Virus record (IMG/VR): IMGVR_UViG_3300018428_000225
Location: 1-21,922 of that record
Strand: one strand, 5' to 3'
DNA length: 21,922 nt
DNA from: a virus
Shown: positions 4,316 to 21,922 of the stretch, one piece after another
Layout: each line of letters starts with the position of its first letter
Position numbering within the stretch: position 1 is the first letter of the stretch
Program-made: the position numbers and the translations under genes
Notes under the pieces: model-generated
What the model was told of the DNA's origin: nothing
Database searches by the model: none
The model's input: the letters and a program-made list of their open reading frames with translations, nothing else

Positions 4316-6667
4316 ATGGCCGTCACTCAAGGCGAAATCAATAAGAATATAGCCTTTTTTATTAAACAACAATTCCCTGGAATATACAGGGAAGATGGTG
4401 CAGAGCTCGTCCAATTAGTAGAAGATTATTATAGATTTGCTGAAACACAAACTAACCAACACAACTATATTTCAAGAAGAATTTATGAAATACGAGATGT
4501 TGATACTACTCTTGCAGATTTTATTATATTCTTTCAAAAGAAATTCCTTCAAGATTTACCTCTTAAAGAAGATGTAATTAAATTTATTGTTAAAAATATT
4601 CTTGACTTATACAGAAGAAAAGGTACTGCAGCAGGTATTGAGTTATTCTTTGCAATATTTTATGAAGAATTTGATTTGGATATTACATATCCAGCAAAAT
4701 TCATGCTCAAAGCTTCAAACAGTGAATGGCGCCAAGGTGTATATTTACAGTTATTCCCAAATACAGGTGCTTTCTTTTCTCAATCCGGTAAAGAATTTAG
4801 TTATTTAGATCTCATTTCTCGTAATATTACTGGTTCGGCATCTGGTGCAAAAGCTGCTGTCAGTAAAGTTAATTTTATTATTTTAAATGGTATTGAAACA
4901 CCTATTATTTACCTTGATGCTTTAAAAGGTAATTTCCAACGATATGATGATTTAATCGTAAACATAAATGGAGAAGTGGTTTCTTTTGGTCGTGTTAACG
5001 GTTCTTTAAGTGGTATCATTATTGATGAAGAATATCCAGGCACAACAGGAAATAATATTGGTGACATTTATGATGTCGTATCAGAATATGGTGGCGGTGG
5101 TAAAGCAATTGTCACAGAATTATCAAACAAAGTTACCGGAGAAATAGATTATAATATTGATAGTGGAGGTTTTGGATATACAATAGATAATACAAGATTA
5201 TTAGTTTCAAACCAAACACTTATTTTACCTAACGCAAATACTGATTATATCATATACGAAACACTTGTTGATACAGCAAATAACCAAGGAATTATTATTG
5301 GTCAAAACGAATCAACTATCGGTGTAAGAATGAACACAGGCCAAGAATTTGATTTGTCTAGACCAATTAGTACTTTAGATCGTAGTTCAAATTTTGTTCT
5401 ACCAGTTGGAGGCATTTCTCCAAAAAATGAATCATCTCCTGGAGCATTATTTCCAGACACCGGCGCAAATACCGATGTTAAGGTTTCACTATTAACAAAT
5501 ACATTTACTGCTGAAGTAATTACAGATCCTATTCAACCACATTTAGCAACAGTCTTAAATATTGCTGATTATGAAGTGAATGCTCCATTCTCAGGAACAG
5601 CATCTCCAGTTAATTTAAGTACTCCATTGGATGAAGCATTTGATATTGAATCATTAACAATTGGAACAATTGCTGATTTTGCAAATATTAATCCTGGTAC
5701 CGATTACGTTAACGACGTTTTTGCAAGAGCAGAAGATGAAGTATTTAAACGATTTGAAAGAAAGAATCAAATATTAAGATTTGCAGAACCAGGCACCGCT
5801 GGAAACTTTACTAAAGGTGAAATTGTAGCTGATGCAAATACAGGTATACAGGGTGCCGTTGTAGATACTGACACAGAATTTGGATTTATTACTGTAACAC
5901 CATACTCGTATTATGGCTTTGAAGGTATTGAAGAAGTTGAAAGATTAAATGGTGATGTATTTCCAGTTGTCGGTTTTGAATTTGATTATAATAGTAGGTC
6001 ATACGGTGACAATGCTGTTATTGATGCCGATACAGAATTTGCAGTAGGAAAAATTAAAGAAGTTGCAATTGATAATTCTGGCTTCGGATATATTGACGGG
6101 TTTACAGCTCAATTAGTTGACCCAGATGATGGTGAAATTCAAGCTCAAGGAACACTTCAATGTTTAAAACAAGGTGTGACTTCTGGGTTCTGGGCAAATT
6201 ACTCTGGTCATATTAACGGATATATTGAATCAGCAAATGGAGTTTTAGATTATTATACTTCAGGACAACGAATTCAGGATAGTGATTATTACCAAGAATA
6301 TTCATACCAAATTAAATCTAAATTAGGTAAAGAAACATACGAAAAATTATTAAAAGAAAATATGCATTTGGCTGGTTCCAAAATGTTTGGCGATTTCATT
6401 TATAAAGCTAAAGTAGATGATCAAACAAAAGCAAGGTTCTTAAGATTATTTAATGATGACGGCAGAGGTTCACCACTTGATATTGCAAATGTTGAGTCAC
6501 TTGATGCTGCAGTTACAAATTATTATGCAGATTCTACATTCGTAACAGCAGACCATGTCAAAGGTGGTGGTTATTCAGGACCTGTAACTCTTGATGTATC
6601 TACAATAGATATTAGTGATTCTTCTGGTAACTATCCAAGTACAACAACAATTACGGTGACGAACTAA
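4316..6667 (+). CDS. Large baseplate wedge protein, gpI/gp7-like N-terminus
   Basis: 783 residues. The N-terminal ~150 residues are helical and resemble the P2 gpI family: residues 82-118 carry an acidic/hydrophobic helix followed by LYRRKGTAAGIE at 98-109, like the conserved 'R-x-x-GT-x-x-x-[IL]' turn of gpI proteins. gpI is the P2 counterpart of T4 gp7 and of TssG, which bind two copies of gp6. Being directly after gp25 and gp6 matches the gp7 position. The rest is a chain of beta-rich, Gly/Asn-rich modules (for example YGGGGKAIVTEL and SGGFGYTIDNTRL) that look like linked small beta domains. The C-terminus ends in a Ser/Thr-rich strand. AGGAAA at 4305-4310 is a good ribosome binding site. 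The stop overlaps the next start by one base (TAATG). The gp7 equivalence is inference; that it is a conserved baseplate structural protein is much surer. Confidence 0.7.
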   Translation: MAVTQGEINKNIAFFIKQQFPGIYREDGAELVQLVEDYYRFAETQTNQHNYISRRIYEIRDVDTTLADFIIFFQKKFLQDLPLKEDVIKFIVKNILDLYRRKGTAAGIELFFAIFYEEFDLDITYPAKFMLKASNSEWRQGVYLQLFPNTGAFFSQSGKEFSYLDLISRNITGSASGAKAAVSKVNFIILNGIETPIIYLDALKGNFQRYDDLIVNINGEVVSFGRVNGSLSGIIIDEEYPGTTGNNIGDIYDVVSEYGGGGKAIVTELSNKVTGEIDYNIDSGGFGYTIDNTRLLVSNQTLILPNANTDYIIYETLVDTANNQGIIIGQNESTIGVRMNTGQEFDLSRPISTLDRSSNFVLPVGGISPKNESSPGALFPDTGANTDVKVSLLTNTFTAEVITDPIQPHLATVLNIADYEVNAPFSGTASPVNLSTPLDEAFDIESLTIGTIADFANINPGTDYVNDVFARAEDEVFKRFERKNQILRFAEPGTAGNFTKGEIVADANTGIQGAVVDTDTEFGFITVTPYSYYGFEGIEEVERLNGDVFPVVGFEFDYNSRSYGDNAVIDADTEFAVGKIKEVAIDNSGFGYIDGFTAQLVDPDDGEIQAQGTLQCLKQGVTSGFWANYSGHINGYIESANGVLDYYTSGQRIQDSDYYQEYSYQIKSKLGKETYEKLLKENMHLAGSKMFGDFIYKAKVDDQTKARFLRLFNDDGRGSPLDIANVESLDAAVTNYYADSTFVTADHVKGGGYSGPVTLDVSTIDISDSSGNYPSTTTITVTN

Positions 6668-7512
6668 TGGCAACGATAAGATATGTATCAGACGGCGACC
6701 CATATCCAGCTAAGGCAGGAAGAACACCATTAACAAATGATGGTTCAACTTCTAGAGCAGGTTTTGGTGGCGGTAATACTATTTCAGATCAAACACATAA
6801 TTATGCTTTTACATATAGAGCAGGAACAAATACAAGCAACCCACAACCAACAACATTAGGGGCAATGGGTATTGCAAATAATGGAGTAGTACTTTTTAAT
6901 CCAAGTGCTGCGCCGGGACCATTACCGGGTGGAAACCAGAATCCAGCTCCAGGATTTACATTTAATGCTGTATTTAATGAATCTGCTTATGGTGTAGATG
7001 CATGTGGTGGGCATCCGGAACAAAATGGAGAATATCATTATCATTCGGGTTCATTTTTAATTAATTGTTGGGATTCAAAAGTTTGGGGCTCAAATGCATA
7101 TTATAATGATACAGATTTTTCAGGCGATCATTTTAGACATACAGATGGTCACAGTAAAGTTTTAGGATTTTGTTTTGATGGTTATCCTTTATATGGACCA
7201 TACGGTTATCAAAATCCGTTAGACCCTAACACATTAGCTGTTCAACAGACAAGTAGCTGGAGAACATTGGCATCAGAAGCAGCAGGAAGAGGCTTTACTT
7301 ATGCTCAAATACCAGCAGGAAGTTTTATAAACGATTATGAATATGTTCAAGGTATAGGAACACTTGATCAATATAACGGGAGATTTTGTATTACTCCAGA
7401 TTACCCAACTGGAACTTATGCATACTTTTTGACTTTTGAAAGTGGTGATTTAACTACACCAGCATTTCCATATATTTTTGGATTAAGTACAAAAGAACAA
7501 AGAGATGTTTAA
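6667..7512 (+). CDS. YHYH-domain protein
   Basis: 281 residues with the full set of YHYH-domain (PF14240-type) motifs: a Gly/Ala nGV core around 65-76 (MGIANNGVVLF), CGGHPEQNGEYHYH ending at H126 (Y123-H124-Y125-H126), GFCFDGYPLYGPYGY at 167-181, LDQYNGRF at 233-240 and YPTGTYAYFLT at 246-256. The biochemical role of the domain is not established; the clustered His and Cys residues (C113, H116, H124, H126, C134, H155, H158, H162) would suit metal binding, which is my inference. There is no signal peptide or membrane segment, as expected for a virion rather than a secreted protein. It begins on a one-base overlap with the gp7-like stop, so it is probably translated with the wedge genes and may be a particle component. 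The gene is followed by a 46-base gap containing a likely late promoter. Confidence 0.85.
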   Translation: MATIRYVSDGDPYPAKAGRTPLTNDGSTSRAGFGGGNTISDQTHNYAFTYRAGTNTSNPQPTTLGAMGIANNGVVLFNPSAAPGPLPGGNQNPAPGFTFNAVFNESAYGVDACGGHPEQNGEYHYHSGSFLINCWDSKVWGSNAYYNDTDFSGDHFRHTDGHSKVLGFCFDGYPLYGPYGYQNPLDPNTLAVQQTSSWRTLASEAAGRGFTYAQIPAGSFINDYEYVQGIGTLDQYNGRFCITPDYPTGTYAYFLTFESGDLTTPAFPYIFGLSTKEQRDV

Positions 7513-7558: not shown

Positions 7559-8899
7559 ATGGCCAAGCAAATTATTAACATCGGAGCATCCGCAAATGAC
7601 GGGACAGGTGACCCGCTCAGAAATGCCTTCGATAAAACAAACGATAACTTCAATGAGTTATACCTTGCATTAGGAAGTTCAACAACTGCTACATCACTTT
7701 TTGATAGTAGCGGCAACCTTGATTTAACAGGTAAATCTCATAAAATATCATTCTACTATGCTACAAAAGCATTACTAGATGCAGTAAATCCTTCAACATA
7801 TCACGGAGCAATAGGACATGCTCATGATACAGGAAAACTTTACTATGCTCATAGTGGGGAATGGGTAGAATTAGCAACCGCCGACGATTTGCAAGGTGGT
7901 GGAGGTTCCTCAGCTAATACATTTGGTACAATAGCAGTTTCTGGCCAGACTTCGATTGTAGCAGATAGCACTACTGATACTCTTACTCTTGCTGCAGGCA
8001 CAGGAATTTCTTTAACAACAAATGCTACCTCTGATAGTGTTACAGTTGCTTCAACGGTAACAGCTCCTAATACATTTGGAACAATTGCTGTTGGTGGTCA
8101 AAGTAATGTTGTTGCAGATAGTTCAACAGATACACTTACATTTATTGCCGGTTCTAATATTACTCTTACAACTGATGCCACCAATGATAGTATTACAATT
8201 AACTCTTCAGGTGGCGGTGGTTCAAATACTATTAATTTAAATAGTGCAGCTGCTGGAACAGTTGACACAAGCCAAGACAGTTATGCTTTCATTGATGCAA
8301 ATGATAGTGGAAATACTAAAAAGGCAACTCTTTCAGATTTAGTTGCTTCGATCGCCGGTACAAATTTAACTGCAAGTAATGGTGTACTAAATGCTGCTGC
8401 TGGATACGCAAATGCTGATGTTGATGCTCATTTAAATACGAGTTCCGCAGCCAATAATGAAATACTTAGTTGGACTGGAACAGATTATGATTGGGTAGCA
8501 GCTGGTAGTGGTGGTTTTACTCCATCTCGTGTCACAGAAGCAGAAACAACAGCAAGTATTAATGATGGTGCTTCGGGGAATGTTGAATATGCAGATTTAG
8601 GAAAATCATTTGCTCTTTATACAGTTACAGTTGATAAACCATCTTGGATAAGAATATATTCTGATACAGCATCAAGAACAGCAGATGCTGGTAGACCACA
8701 AGGTCAAGATCCTGCAGAAGGTGCAGGTGTTATTGCAGAATTTGTTGCGACTGCAAATAATACAACATTTAAAGTGACACCAGCAATTTATGGTTATATT
8801 GATAATGGAGAAACTACATTGCCCGTTGCGATAAAAAATAATTCGGGAAGCACAGGAACGATACAAGTTTCATTAACAGCATTAAAATTAGAGTCCTAA
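7559..8899 (+). CDS. Virion fibre-like structural protein with two tandem repeats
   Basis: 446 residues. The N-terminus (MAKQIINIGASANDGTGDP, then FDKTNDNFNEL at 24-34) is a module seen at the start of many T4-like cyanophage structural and fibre proteins and probably anchors the protein to the baseplate. Residues 122-172 and 173-218 are tandem copies of a Thr/Ala-rich beta repeat (FGTIAV-[SG]-GQ, VADS-[ST]-TDTLT, then SVTV or SITI). A Gly-rich hinge follows (SSGGGGSNT). The final domain, residues 321-446, contains WIRIYSDTASRTAD, Gly/Ala-rich strands and a terminal LTALKLES; I recall similar C-terminal beta domains in cyanophage fibres, possibly receptor- or carbohydrate-facing. AGAGGAAG at 7549-7556 is a good ribosome binding site and fixes the start. 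Only three bases separate its stop from the next gene. Exact attachment point on the virion is unknown. Confidence 0.7.
   Translation: MAKQIINIGASANDGTGDPLRNAFDKTNDNFNELYLALGSSTTATSLFDSSGNLDLTGKSHKISFYYATKALLDAVNPSTYHGAIGHAHDTGKLYYAHSGEWVELATADDLQGGGGSSANTFGTIAVSGQTSIVADSTTDTLTLAAGTGISLTTNATSDSVTVASTVTAPNTFGTIAVGGQSNVVADSSTDTLTFIAGSNITLTTDATNDSITINSSGGGGSNTINLNSAAAGTVDTSQDSYAFIDANDSGNTKKATLSDLVASIAGTNLTASNGVLNAAAGYANADVDAHLNTSSAANNEILSWTGTDYDWVAAGSGGFTPSRVTEAETTASINDGASGNVEYADLGKSFALYTVTVDKPSWIRIYSDTASRTADAGRPQGQDPAEGAGVIAEFVATANNTTFKVTPAIYGYIDNGETTLPVAIKNNSGSTGTIQVSLTALKLES
7922..8212 (+). repeat. Two tandem 51-residue coding repeats
   Basis: Within the 446-residue fibre-like protein, copies begin at F122 (base 7922) and F173 (base 8075), an exact 153-base period. 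Both run FGTIAV-x-GQ, VADS-x-TDTLT, AG-x-x-I-x-LTT, then a Ser/Thr strand. The DNA differs at many positions, so the repeat is kept at protein level rather than being a recent duplication. Confidence 0.85.
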
Positions 8900-8902
8900 T
8901 TT

Positions 8903-11116
8903 ATGGATAAACATATTCACACGGTAATATTAATACCAGGTACAGACGAAGCAGCATTCTTAGAAAATGAGGCTGCCGGAATGGAAGTCGTCAGTAATTT
9001 GAATATGTTTGACTCCATTATTTCAATGAGATTAACTGAAACAGAGGTTGCAACTTTATTAGAAAGTGATAAGGTTGTTGATGTTGAAAAAGAAATGCCT
9101 GTTGTAGAATTAGCATATCCAGACACTCCAGAATATTCTAGAAGTACTACATTGGAAACACGTAATACACCATCTGGTTCAAATGGTGCCGATTATTCTC
9201 CAACGAGTTTTTGGTTCCATGGTGGAGTAAATATCACATCAAATTCTGCTCCAGTGGGATTTTTTACGACCAATGGTGAAGATTCCGAAGTTTCAGCAAC
9301 AATAGAACAAAACTATGTTGGTGAATATGTTGATATTGTAGCTGTTGAAGCAGGAACTCCATCAAACAGTTATGATTATTATGCATATAGTCACCCAGAT
9401 TTTCAAGATGCAAATAATAGCCCAAGATTTGTAAAAACAGATTGGACAACATATGATTCTGGCCTAGTTGATAATGACCAAGCTTCGGCAAACACAGAAT
9501 TTTTTACTTCCCATGCTATTGGTGTTTTGAGTGCTGCAGGTGGGAAATACTGTGGTTGGAGTAATGCTTCAAGTTTAAGAACGGTATATCTTTCAAATGG
9601 TGTTGCCGCGGCATATAATGGAGTATTAAATTTTCATCAAAATAAACCTGTGAATCCAGCAACAGGAGTTCGTAACGCGACAGTTGTTACTGGTGCCTGG
9701 GGGTTTGCAGGAGTCGATTTAATTGGTGCAATACCAATTGACGATATCTATAAATTAGAAGTTTATGATGATGATGGCAATATGACAACAATTAATAGAC
9801 CAACTGGGACTGGTTTGCCACAGACATATGCAATTACAGCAACAGCTTCAGATTCAAGTAATTACACACTTTCTGGAACAGATAGAGATGGTTCAGTATC
9901 AGGAACAGACCCGGCACTTAATTTAGTTGTTGGAGATACATTAAATATTACAAATAATGTTTCTGGTTCGCATCCAATGTATATAAAAACAACAAATACT
10001 GGAGGAAGTGGAGACCAAGTATCAACACCTGCTGCCACAGGACAAGGTACTGCTAATGTTTCTTGGACTCCAAATGCACCAGGCACATATTATTATCAAT
10101 GTGGGTTCCATAGTTCAATGGTTGGTACAATTACTGTAATTGCACAATCAACTGATGGTTGGGGAACTGATTTTACTCCATTCACAGATAATTTTATGGC
10201 ACCTCGTGTTATTAATGATCCAGCAGATAATACTGATAAATGGATGGTTCCTTGGAATAATGGTTCGAGATATACTACGCTTGATACAATTCTGTCAAAT
10301 TATAATAATGCTGGCGGCATATATCATTTCCAAAGTGCTGGGAACAACAGTACCGTAGGTGTAAAAGAAGCAGACCCAAGGTCAAGTAATAAAATTTATT
10401 TAGATCCAGCAACAAATTATGTTGATATGAGTTTAGTTAACGGCCAATACTCGTTTACCTCACAAACAACAGCTAGTTCTCCATCAGTCACATTTGTATT
10501 GCCATGTCGCATGTATCATGGTGGTGGCACAAATGATATTACAGTTGCTGCATGCCAACAAAGTACTGTGAATCCATTATTAGACGATTATAGTAGCAGA
10601 GGCCCGATGGTCGATATATCTGCCACTGGAGCATATACATGGACATCGTATCCTACAAATACATACAATGATGGTGATTGGGGATATTTTAGTGGAACAT
10701 CTTGTGCCGGCCCAGTTGCTGCAGGAACAGCAAGCATTATGATTTGTGATTTCTTCATCAAACGAGGAGTATATCCAACAATCGCTCAATTAAAACAAAT
10801 TATAACTGATAATGCTAAACCAAATTTAGTAAGTGAAGGTCTTGTGGATTTTGAAAACGCAAGTGCAGCAACAAATTTTGCTTCATCAAGGTTATATTCA
10901 TCAAGCAATGTATTTCGTATCTCTGAAAATGATTACCAAAATGGTGGCACTGATTTGAGTGATTTATTTGGAACACCAACTGATATCATCAATATACCAT
11001 GGGGTATCAGATTAGGTACAGGAAAATATATTAATGCAGTCAGAGGCCCAGCTTATGGAAAGCGTTCAGTATCAGGACAAACATATCCTCGTAGAAAGAT
11101 AAGAGTGGAAGCATAG
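8903..11116 (+). CDS. Subtilisin-like (S8) structural protein with inserted cupredoxin domain
   Basis: 737 residues. Residues 5-66 resemble an I9-type subtilisin propeptide. The S8 fold follows: VDIVAVEAGT around E149 (where active enzymes have Asp), HPDF about 17 residues later, catalytic-type H204 in FFTSHAIGVLSAAGG, oxyanion-type N481 in FQSAGNNS, and nucleophile-type S600 in FSGTSCAGPVAAG. KPVNPATG between the His and Asn regions is a motif I recall from S8 proteins of T4-like cyanophages. Residues ~309-413 are a separate beta domain inserted in the protease: GDTLNITN, SHPMYIKT, then GTYYYQCGFHSSMVG. H357, C400, H403 and M406 form a type-1 copper set with the C-x2-H-x2-M spacing of amicyanin. 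The C-terminal ~120 residues end in a basic YPRRKIRVEA tail. There is no secretion signal, so it probably acts in the virion. The Asp-to-Glu change leaves catalysis uncertain; it may be a structural pseudo-protease. Confidence 0.85.
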   Translation: MDKHIHTVILIPGTDEAAFLENEAAGMEVVSNLNMFDSIISMRLTETEVATLLESDKVVDVEKEMPVVELAYPDTPEYSRSTTLETRNTPSGSNGADYSPTSFWFHGGVNITSNSAPVGFFTTNGEDSEVSATIEQNYVGEYVDIVAVEAGTPSNSYDYYAYSHPDFQDANNSPRFVKTDWTTYDSGLVDNDQASANTEFFTSHAIGVLSAAGGKYCGWSNASSLRTVYLSNGVAAAYNGVLNFHQNKPVNPATGVRNATVVTGAWGFAGVDLIGAIPIDDIYKLEVYDDDGNMTTINRPTGTGLPQTYAITATASDSSNYTLSGTDRDGSVSGTDPALNLVVGDTLNITNNVSGSHPMYIKTTNTGGSGDQVSTPAATGQGTANVSWTPNAPGTYYYQCGFHSSMVGTITVIAQSTDGWGTDFTPFTDNFMAPRVINDPADNTDKWMVPWNNGSRYTTLDTILSNYNNAGGIYHFQSAGNNSTVGVKEADPRSSNKIYLDPATNYVDMSLVNGQYSFTSQTTASSPSVTFVLPCRMYHGGGTNDITVAACQQSTVNPLLDDYSSRGPMVDISATGAYTWTSYPTNTYNDGDWGYFSGTSCAGPVAAGTASIMICDFFIKRGVYPTIAQLKQIITDNAKPNLVSEGLVDFENASAATNFASSRLYSSSNVFRISENDYQNGGTDLSDLFGTPTDIINIPWGIRLGTGKYINAVRGPAYGKRSVSGQTYPRRKIRVEA

Positions 11117-19676: not shown

Positions 19677-21922
19677 ATGGCAAAAATTTCAGAACTAGGT
19701 TCCATTACCGGTGCTAATACCAGGTCGGAAGACCTATTCGTTATTGTCAACCTTGTTCAAGGCGATGATGGTACCAAAAATATTACTCGTAAAGAATTAG
19801 TTGAGGCTATTCAGTACGAGATATTTAGTCGTATCACAATAACTGGAGGTACAATCTCCGGCGTCGTGATGTCCGATTCACGACTAGATAATGTTACCAT
19901 TGACAATTCTGACATTGAAGATACTTCATTTATTCGTGGTAATATTGACAATACAGTAATTACAAATTCCGATGCTAGAAACATTACAATTACCGAGTCC
20001 AGTTATTCAAACGGCGTAATCTTTGATGTAACAGCAAATACAATGACAATTACCGATTCTGATTTCTCAGATGGTACTGCAAATAATATTGTCATTACAA
20101 ATTCCGAGTTCAACGAAGGTACTGGTAACAATGTTGTCTTAACAAATTCAACCATTGATGATTCTACCATTACAGATTCAACAGCAAACAATGTTAATAT
20201 TACAAGTTCCGTTTTTGATGATGGTTCGATTACAAATTCTTCTTTTGCAAATGGTACATTACAGGATTCGACTGGCGATAATATTACATTAGTAAATTCC
20301 GATTTCTCAAACGGAACAATTTCAACATCTACTGCTGACCAAATTACAATCACTAATTCTTCAATGGAAGATAGTGATATTGCAAATACAGTTATTCAAA
20401 CATCTACATTTACAAATGGTGCTATTACAAACTCTACTGCTAACACCACTGTTATTACAGATTCCGAGTTTAATGATGGAACAGCAAATAATATCGTCAT
20501 TACAGATTCTGAATTTAATGACGGAACAGGTAACAATGTAGTACTTACAAATTCAACCATTGATGAATCATTATTCCAAAATGGCACAATTGCAAATACC
20601 AGTTTCCAAGGCACAATGGAAAATGTTGTTGCTACTGATATTACAATCCGTAGTTCATCTGCTGATGGACTTTCATCAAATAATTCATCATTTGAAAATG
20701 GTACATTAGAGACATCAACATTTAGTGGTGGTGTTATTGACCAATCTAAACTTGTTGACTTTGATATGGATCTTACCAAAGAGTTTGATCCTCCAATGGA
20801 AGATGAAAATTATTTTGCAATTAAAAATGAAAAGACTGGTGAAACAGAACAAATTAGCTTTGGTCAATTATTCGACGAAGTATCTAAGAAAACAGCTCAA
20901 GCACTTAAAGTTCATGTAGACGCTGGTTCAGGTGATGATGACAATCCAGGGACTCAATTACAACCTGTTAGAACACTTGAAAGGGCATTTGAACTTTGTT
21001 TAGAAAAAGCTGGCGGTGATTATAATAGAAACGCAGTAAACAATGCTGTGCACATTTCTGCTGGACCAGGAACATATTATACAAAAGGTAATCTTGCACT
21101 ACCAGATGATTGTTCAATGAGTTCAACAGCTGGACAATATGCTACTGTAATTGAAGCATTACCTGGCTATGAAAATAATAACGCTGTTCTTGTTGGTTCA
21201 GGTTGTTATGTTCAAGGTTTCTCATATCAAAACTGGAAAATTGACAACTTTGATTTCCCAGAAGGTGGATTTGCTGTCGCATACAGACCAGGTGCAAAAC
21301 TCCTGCGTTCTCCATACCTAAGAGATAGTACTCAGTTATCAAACTTCAACAGATTAGATGTTGAACCACCTCTTAATCCTTATAACAGTAAAGGAACACT
21401 TGCTGATTTAGGTCAAACATTCACAATGGAGCCTGGTTACTCTGGTGCCTGGGAAGAAGGTGATGAGATTAAATTCAGTTCAGGTGCTGTTGGTTACCTA
21501 TCATGGGACGACGCAGCAGATGCACTGAAAGGCAATCCAGGTGATATCGCAACTAGTGGTATTATTAGAGTCCGAAATCTTAAAAATGGTGAAGGGTTTG
21601 CTGTAGGTGATACTGTAACATCAGAATCTGGTGGTACTGGTGTCATTCAATCAATTGGTATTGACGACTTCCCGAACAGAGAAGTTGGTCGAGGTGGTGG
21701 TTGTGTTCTCGCAGACAGAAGAGTTTTAGATCCGGATTCACTTTATACCTACGTATTATGCTTCGGTTTCACACCTCGTACACAAAACGGAATAGGTTAT
21801 GTTGCTAGAGATGGTGCTGGTGTTAACGGTATCGGTTCTCTATCCATCTTCGTACGATGTGCATTCTATGCATTGAATGGTGGTCAGATGACACTGAACA
21901 ACTCAGGTACTCAGTTCGGTGA
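19677..21922 (+). CDS. Large fibre-like structural protein with pentapeptide-repeat shaft (3' truncated by window)
   Basis: Open reading frame from the ATG at 19677 to the window end: 748 codons with no stop, so the gene continues. AGGA at 19665-19668, eight bases before the ATG, supports this start. Residues 1-50 (MAKISELGSITGANT, DLFVIVNLVQGDDG, KNITRKELVEAI) match the N-terminal module of a fibre family found in T4-like cyanophages. Residues 55-364 form a near-perfect pentapeptide array with a hydrophobic or small residue every fifth position and Ser/Thr/Gly between, as in ITNSE, FNEGT, GNNVV and LTNST. Such arrays fold into right-handed quadrilateral beta-helices. After a hinge comes VHVDAGSGDDDNPGTQ, then PVRTLERAF (about 412-436), the usual start of a pectate-lyase-like beta-helix in phage fibres and tailspikes. 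The remainder is Gly-rich beta sequence. Role: host-contact fibre or baseplate appendage, inferred. No catalytic residues could be assigned in the visible part. Confidence 0.85.
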   Translation, partial: MAKISELGSITGANTRSEDLFVIVNLVQGDDGTKNITRKELVEAIQYEIFSRITITGGTISGVVMSDSRLDNVTIDNSDIEDTSFIRGNIDNTVITNSDARNITITESSYSNGVIFDVTANTMTITDSDFSDGTANNIVITNSEFNEGTGNNVVLTNSTIDDSTITDSTANNVNITSSVFDDGSITNSSFANGTLQDSTGDNITLVNSDFSNGTISTSTADQITITNSSMEDSDIANTVIQTSTFTNGAITNSTANTTVITDSEFNDGTANNIVITDSEFNDGTGNNVVLTNSTIDESLFQNGTIANTSFQGTMENVVATDITIRSSSADGLSSNNSSFENGTLETSTFSGGVIDQSKLVDFDMDLTKEFDPPMEDENYFAIKNEKTGETEQISFGQLFDEVSKKTAQALKVHVDAGSGDDDNPGTQLQPVRTLERAFELCLEKAGGDYNRNAVNNAVHISAGPGTYYTKGNLALPDDCSMSSTAGQYATVIEALPGYENNNAVLVGSGCYVQGFSYQNWKIDNFDFPEGGFAVAYRPGAKLLRSPYLRDSTQLSNFNRLDVEPPLNPYNSKGTLADLGQTFTMEPGYSGAWEEGDEIKFSSGAVGYLSWDDAADALKGNPGDIATSGIIRVRNLKNGEGFAVGDTVTSESGGTGVIQSIGIDDFPNREVGRGGGCVLADRRVLDPDSLYTYVLCFGFTPRTQNGIGYVARDGAGVNGIGSLSIFVRCAFYALNGGQMTLNNSGTQFG
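19839..20768 (+). repeat. Pentapeptide-repeat array (about 62 repeats)
   Basis: Residues 55-364 of the terminal fibre-like gene. From I55 to F310 every fifth residue is I, F, L, M, Y, A or G without interruption. Between F310 and M314 one residue is missing, then the five-residue spacing resumes to M364. At about 20 residues per coil this would give roughly 15 coils of quadrilateral beta-helix. Confidence 0.85.
20031..20567 (+). repeat. Internal duplication within the pentapeptide array (copies 405 bases apart)
   Basis: Residues 119-162 (bases 20031-20162) and 254-297 (bases 20436-20567) align without gaps with 37 of 44 residues identical, by my hand count. Many codons differ synonymously, so the copies are not very recent. 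The offset of 135 residues is a multiple of five, keeping the helix register. Confidence 0.8.

Follow-up and report, generated by a model that had tools for sequence, protein, structure and literature searches.

A cupredoxin domain retaining all type-1 copper ligands inside a subtilisin-like phage tail protein: a probable copper-binding surface module

A 737-residue subtilisin-like (S8) protein encoded among the baseplate and tail genes of a marine T4-like myovirus carries an internal cupredoxin domain with a full set of predicted type-1 copper ligands, and this domain probably belongs to a horizontally spread group of copper-binding surface modules of tail proteins acting at host contact. The protein is the product of an open reading frame at positions 8903..11116 of a 21.9-kb virus record, referred to here as the window (all coordinates are given on its + strand). 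The fold family of the domain, its ligand set, its insertion into the S8 protein, its spread across carrier proteins and the conservation of its ligands were established by computation.

Taken as a single sequence, the domain (aa 308-413; 9824..10141) falls below the Pfam thresholds (PF13473, E=0.013; PF00127, E=0.024). A phmmer search aligned it with plastocyanin 1b3i at E=8e-4, with His, Cys, His and Met lining up with the copper ligands, and a 12-row profile matched plastocyanin and copper nitrite reductase at 1.7e-7, amicyanin at 4e-5 and rusticyanin at 5e-5. The homologous phage S8 protein L029 scored above both Pfam cut-offs (40 bits for PF13473 and 35 bits for PF00127). AlphaFold2 (AF2), supplied with a 70-row alignment of the domain, returned a nine-stranded model with a mean pLDDT of 97.1 and a pTM of 0.90, and every top Foldseek match in the PDB was a cupredoxin or a copper protein of cupredoxin fold (E from 5e-6, TM 0.4-0.6); model and matches are in keeping with the Greek-key beta-sandwich of about eight strands that characterises the fold. 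Fold prediction and comparison with plastocyanin and amicyanin, which the initial annotation had put forward as a check on its cupredoxin assignment, thus recovered the cupredoxin fold by AF2, Foldseek and profile alike. The type-1 ligand set His ... Cys-x(n)-His-x(n)-Met/Gln is supplied by H357 (in SHPMYIK; 9971..9973), C400 (10100..10102), H403 (10109..10111) and the axial M406 (10118..10120), which is Gln in a minority of relatives; all four were assigned by alignment to plastocyanin and by conservation, and lie exactly where that annotation had placed them. Alignment with solved cupredoxins, ligand on ligand, and the confident model of the fold point indirectly to the four residues meeting in space, failing which the annotation would have given up its reading. 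Sequence comparison and modelling therefore confirm the segment spanning aa ~301-416 as a genuine cupredoxin domain with a complete predicted type-1 ligand set.

The window domain shares with amicyanin and plastocyanin (PF00127) the cupredoxin fold and the His-Cys-His-Met order, and with amicyanin the length of the loop C-x2-H-x2-M. Its score against the amicyanin equivalog TIGR02657 was 16.8 bits, below the cut-off of 110.2. Whereas amicyanin and plastocyanin are free periplasmic or thylakoid carriers, the window domain is embedded in a phage tail protein, and at the first ligand it has His-Pro in place of the His-Asn of plastocyanin in the alignments shown. His-Pro is also found at the type-1 His of laccases and thus need not prevent a type-1 site.

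The carrier protein itself matched the tail fiber family phrog_15006 (E=2.6e-48) and, by profile, the SubHal subtilase (E=1.6e-5); it gave no Pfam match to PF00082. When profiles were aligned with hhalign, it matched phage S8 proteins that are Pfam-positive at E=1.5e-29, over the whole protein and with a gap at the cupredoxin segment, which establishes homology to peptidase family S8 over the S8 core. The family alignment and the S8 profile alignment put the predicted catalytic His at H204 (9512..9514), the predicted oxyanion-hole Asn at N481 (10343..10345) and the predicted nucleophile at S600, in GTSCAGP (10700..10702). The position of the catalytic Asp is occupied by E149 (9347..9349), so that the window protein lacks a canonical Asp-His-Ser triad. 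The Pfam-positive S8 relatives compared keep the Asp, while every row of the family alignment (A4) that covers position 149 has Glu, with His, Asn and Ser retained. Classical protease activity is therefore uncertain, and the activity of this S8 family may possibly have been altered or lost. Full-length AF2 modelling of the protein was poor (mean pLDDT 56.8) and was used for the N-terminal segment only, where it predicts a beta-alpha-beta-beta-alpha-beta arrangement (aa 1-63; 8903..9091) with pLDDT values mostly of 76-88 and one ten-residue block at 59. In the profile alignment this segment aligns with the N-termini of other phage S8 proteins; it resembles a subtilisin propeptide and may be I9-like.

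The inserted segment (~aa 301-416; 9803..10150) was delineated by comparison with three relatives, L006, L007 and L008, which encode the same protein at 68% identity and lack this part only. The domain is thus an insertion, as had been proposed, and not an end fusion. Its placement between the catalytic-His half and the Asn/Ser half of the S8 fold was likewise upheld, H204 preceding the segment and N481 and S600 following it in the profile alignment to the Pfam-positive phage S8 proteins. From its baseplate-gene setting and its relation to phage tail proteins, the 737-residue protein is predicted to be a structural protein of the tail or baseplate. Virion proteomics of cyanophages has been published (PMC3037559).

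The window has the gene content expected where a T4-like myovirus encodes its baseplate and tail. It comprises genes for an M15 peptidase, gp25, gp6, a wedge protein, the YHYH protein, the gp9/10-like connector, the S8 protein, a second wedge protein (gp8-like), a large protein with DUF4815, and fibre proteins. The best relatives of the window gp6 were found in rhizobial T4-like phages (Sinorhizobium phiN3, 41%). The S8-cupredoxin gene lies within a same-strand run, flanked by the gp9/10-like gene and the gp8-like baseplate wedge gene. The core order of phage phiM12 is similar (M15, gp25, gp6, wedge, gp8) and has no gene between the wedge protein and gp8, for which reason the YHYH, gp9/10 and S8 genes look like an accessory block. 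The connector that adjoins the S8 gene (7559..8899; PF07880, E=3.6e-6) is free of cupredoxin; its counterparts in L006, L008, L035, L036 and L051 have one. One gene upstream of the connector, at 6667-7512, lies the YHYH-domain protein (PF14240, E=3e-38), of a type predicted to be a metal-binding hydrolase (PMC7824862). A cupredoxin-like fold was also seen inside the YHYH protein A0A6J5L0K2 of BFVD, indicating that the two modules can share one protein. Elsewhere in the window, 508-2049 encodes a baseplate-adjacent protein (phrog_25247) with a C-terminal M15-type peptidase domain, as in phiM12, and 19677-21920 encodes long pentapeptide-like repeats (PF13599, E=1e-16) in a protein that is open at the window end.

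The initial annotation had regarded such a domain as no standard phage part. This did not stand: related domains are present in tail proteins from 275 or more deposited phage genomes, and from hundreds of metagenomic contigs besides. The 275 public phage records, retrieved by tblastn, are nearly all T4-like phages of Synechococcus or Prochlorococcus, and the carriers among the tblastn rows listed are mostly gp9 connectors, followed by S8, tail-spike and hypothetical proteins. In IMG/VR, a single pattern retrieved at least 545 confirmed stretches with the domain. Of 19 named phage records searched whole, 15 gave one to four matches; T4, phiM12, HTVC008M and S-PM2 gave none, indicating that the domain is not essential to this tail type. 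Weak matches in ~110-aa frames of the named records are consistent with petE, and the whole-record search therefore recovers petE as well. A regular expression, which may overlook or wrongly assign some carriers, detected an S8 motif in 46 of the 93 non-redundant ones, and both the carriers and the position of the domain within them vary widely. In the gp9 fibre connectors of cyanophages (phrog_677; P-SSM4, Syn9, S-RIM12), which share with the window domain intact ligands and a location among tail and baseplate genes, the cupredoxin is C-terminal and falls into a separate clade, whereas that of the window is internal to S8. Cyanophage S8 proteins (ACG-2014e, S-H9-1, P-HM1) resemble the window protein in combining S8 core and cupredoxin but have the latter in a terminal or tandem position. 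The tail domains of the records inspected are not annotated as copper domains, and among the open-licence papers retrieved on cupredoxins or plastocyanin-like domains in phage tails and virions, none describes such a domain in its title or abstract.

The closest cellular relatives, sought with close patterns whose reach is close relatives, came from marine Bacteroidota at 36 of 38 loci, the other two being a Prochlorococcus single-cell contig and a Candidatus Shapirobacteria contig. Among them are L214 and L217, which stand alone at 128-131 aa and seem to have signal peptides, the lipoprotein-like L203 and L207, and L226, which includes a secretion-system sorting domain. Phage and bacterial domains are up to ~61% identical and share the pattern HP...CxxHxxM; the bacterial ones are cellular and stand alone or form part of lipoproteins or secreted proteins, whereas that of the window resides in a phage tail protein. 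It is rather likely, on balance, that marine Bacteroidota and marine T4-like phages have in common a mobile family of exported cupredoxin modules. In a tree of 139 rows, which has few columns and many unresolved forks, carrier types are mixed, and the gp9-like inserts of L006, L008, L038 and L051 group in a clade of their own, separate from the S8 inserts (100/97). This tree supports repeated movement of the domain among carriers, short of a rooted history. A scheme in which a single cupredoxin per phage shifts between S8 and gp9 was rejected, as L035, L036, L051 and L038 have both and the two sets fall into different clades.

The tree also bears on whether the window domain is a captured copy of a phage or host plastocyanin, that is, of the auxiliary metabolic gene petE. 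Many of the phage genomes with the domain also encode petE, and PetE shares the cupredoxin fold and type-1 ligands with the window domain. However, PetE is the product of a stand-alone metabolic gene, forms its own clade (100/90) and has a loop C-x2-H-x4-M as opposed to the C-x2-H-x2-M of the virion domains, and the Bacteroidota domains are much closer to that of the window. The window domain is accordingly not plastocyanin proper, and a petE origin, rejected on these grounds, is extremely improbable.

Retention of the ligands across homologues, on which the initial annotation had staked its reading, was borne out. Among 195 unique domains, 166 have His-Cys-His-Met (HCHM) and 9 His-Cys-His-Gln (HCHQ), or 175/195 in all, and the loop C-x2-H-x2-M is present in 165/195. 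Because the pattern of the first IMG/VR scan contained the Cys, retrieval was repeated with a ligand-free N-terminal segment. With similar sequences down-weighted, this ligand-independent set comprised 22.6 HCHM, 3.3 HCHQ and 2 lost sites of 27.9 effective sequences, so that ~93% keep His-Cys-His with Met or Gln. In the 70-row alignment A3 the four ligands are the sole invariant columns, an invariance that is overstated since degenerate and Gln-type rows had been left out beforehand. The exchange of Met for Gln is the natural axial variant of stellacyanins, as would be expected if copper were really bound. A second cupredoxin subtype, in which Gln takes the place of the axial Met (CHFHTGQ), was observed at ~aa 1400-1525 of large S8 proteins (L054, L060, L061, L064, L065, L140, L166, L171).

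These data also weigh on the possibility that the domain is a stable beta-sandwich spacer or oligomerisation module in which copper, if bound, would do no more than stiffen the fold and would take no part in redox chemistry or signalling. Phage tails often contain Ig-like and other beta-sandwich modules, the carriers and positions of the domain vary widely, and ligand-less copies persist in tandem arrays, showing that the fold alone is tolerated. Against such a spacer, His-Cys-His ranks among the most conserved columns, the sole common ligand variant being the alternative axial Gln, and the site is almost never lost from single-copy domains: it is intact in 56 of 57 single-copy carriers, compared to a loss in 18 of 99 copies of multi-copy carriers, where all such proteins except one retain an intact copy. 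This difference reached significance across all loci (p=0.002) but did not do so in the ligand-independent subset by itself (p=0.34), and the copies scored as lost include some fragments. We consider a purely structural role unlikely, though not negligible. Broken cupredoxin remnants fused to an S8 part were observed at ~aa 198-314 of S-CAM1 (L176), one fragment having Cys-His-Met and the next the first His only, with the Cys-His-Met loop missing.

Sequence and model together make it very probable that the window domain binds copper, and a copper-dependent surface-contact module on the phage tail is, in our estimation, the likelier role, if by no wide measure. From the features described, we infer that the cupredoxin, accommodated in a loop of the subtilisin-like protein, would hold one copper ion in a type-1 site made up of His-Cys-His-Met with the short amicyanin-like loop C-x2-H-x2-M. 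Given that the S8 protein is encoded among baseplate genes, the domain should lie outside the tail near its host-facing end, where it may serve as an accessory module for surface contact. It would fold as an apo-protein in the host and be loaded with copper after release of the particle, and the copper site would be needed either for the function of the module or for a stable binding surface.

Copper is tightly bound in type-1 sites, whose architecture serves electron transfer. The domain may accordingly sense copper or redox state, or exchange electrons with a protein of the host envelope, thereby gating fibre deployment, tail contraction or protease activity. The intact ligands would fit such a role, as would the recurrence of the domain in S8 proteins and in gp9, the connector between fibres and baseplate in T4. 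The residues around the exposed His differ among relatives, however, which argues against one fixed partner, and a light-dependent adsorption switch finds no support, as S-PM2, the classic light-dependent adsorber, has no copy. This reading is quite improbable. It is more doubtful still, to the point of being very improbable, that tails loaded with copper take advantage of copper uptake by the host, or imitate a cupredoxin of the host surface so as to bind its receptor, in analogy to the 'Ferrojan horse' proposed for iron. One could conceive of such mimicry in that exported cupredoxins of marine Bacteroidota are the nearest relatives in cells, but isolate carriers with known hosts infect cyanobacteria and the nearest core genes of the window phage belong to rhizobial T4-like phages, not to Bacteroidota phages.

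Returning to a tail module that binds copper and contacts the host, the near-universal upkeep of its copper-holding residues in ocean phages suggests that copper probably matters on the particle. A further step, which we regard as speculative and on the whole unlikely, is that copper serves as a functional cofactor of the tail in a sizeable fraction of marine T4-like phages, where a redox or copper response of type-1 sites on the gp9 connector, the S8 spike and other tail proteins, or their binding to a host surface partner, would make adsorption or tail triggering copper-dependent. Recognition as cupredoxins gives a name to tail domains so far entered only as hypothetical, gp9 or subtilisin-like. 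Should copper indeed be bound, one of the ocean's most abundant virus groups would carry a redox-active metal on the exterior of its particles, a departure from the usual view of phage cupredoxins as metabolic genes such as petE, and marine copper chemistry would be tied to phage adsorption.
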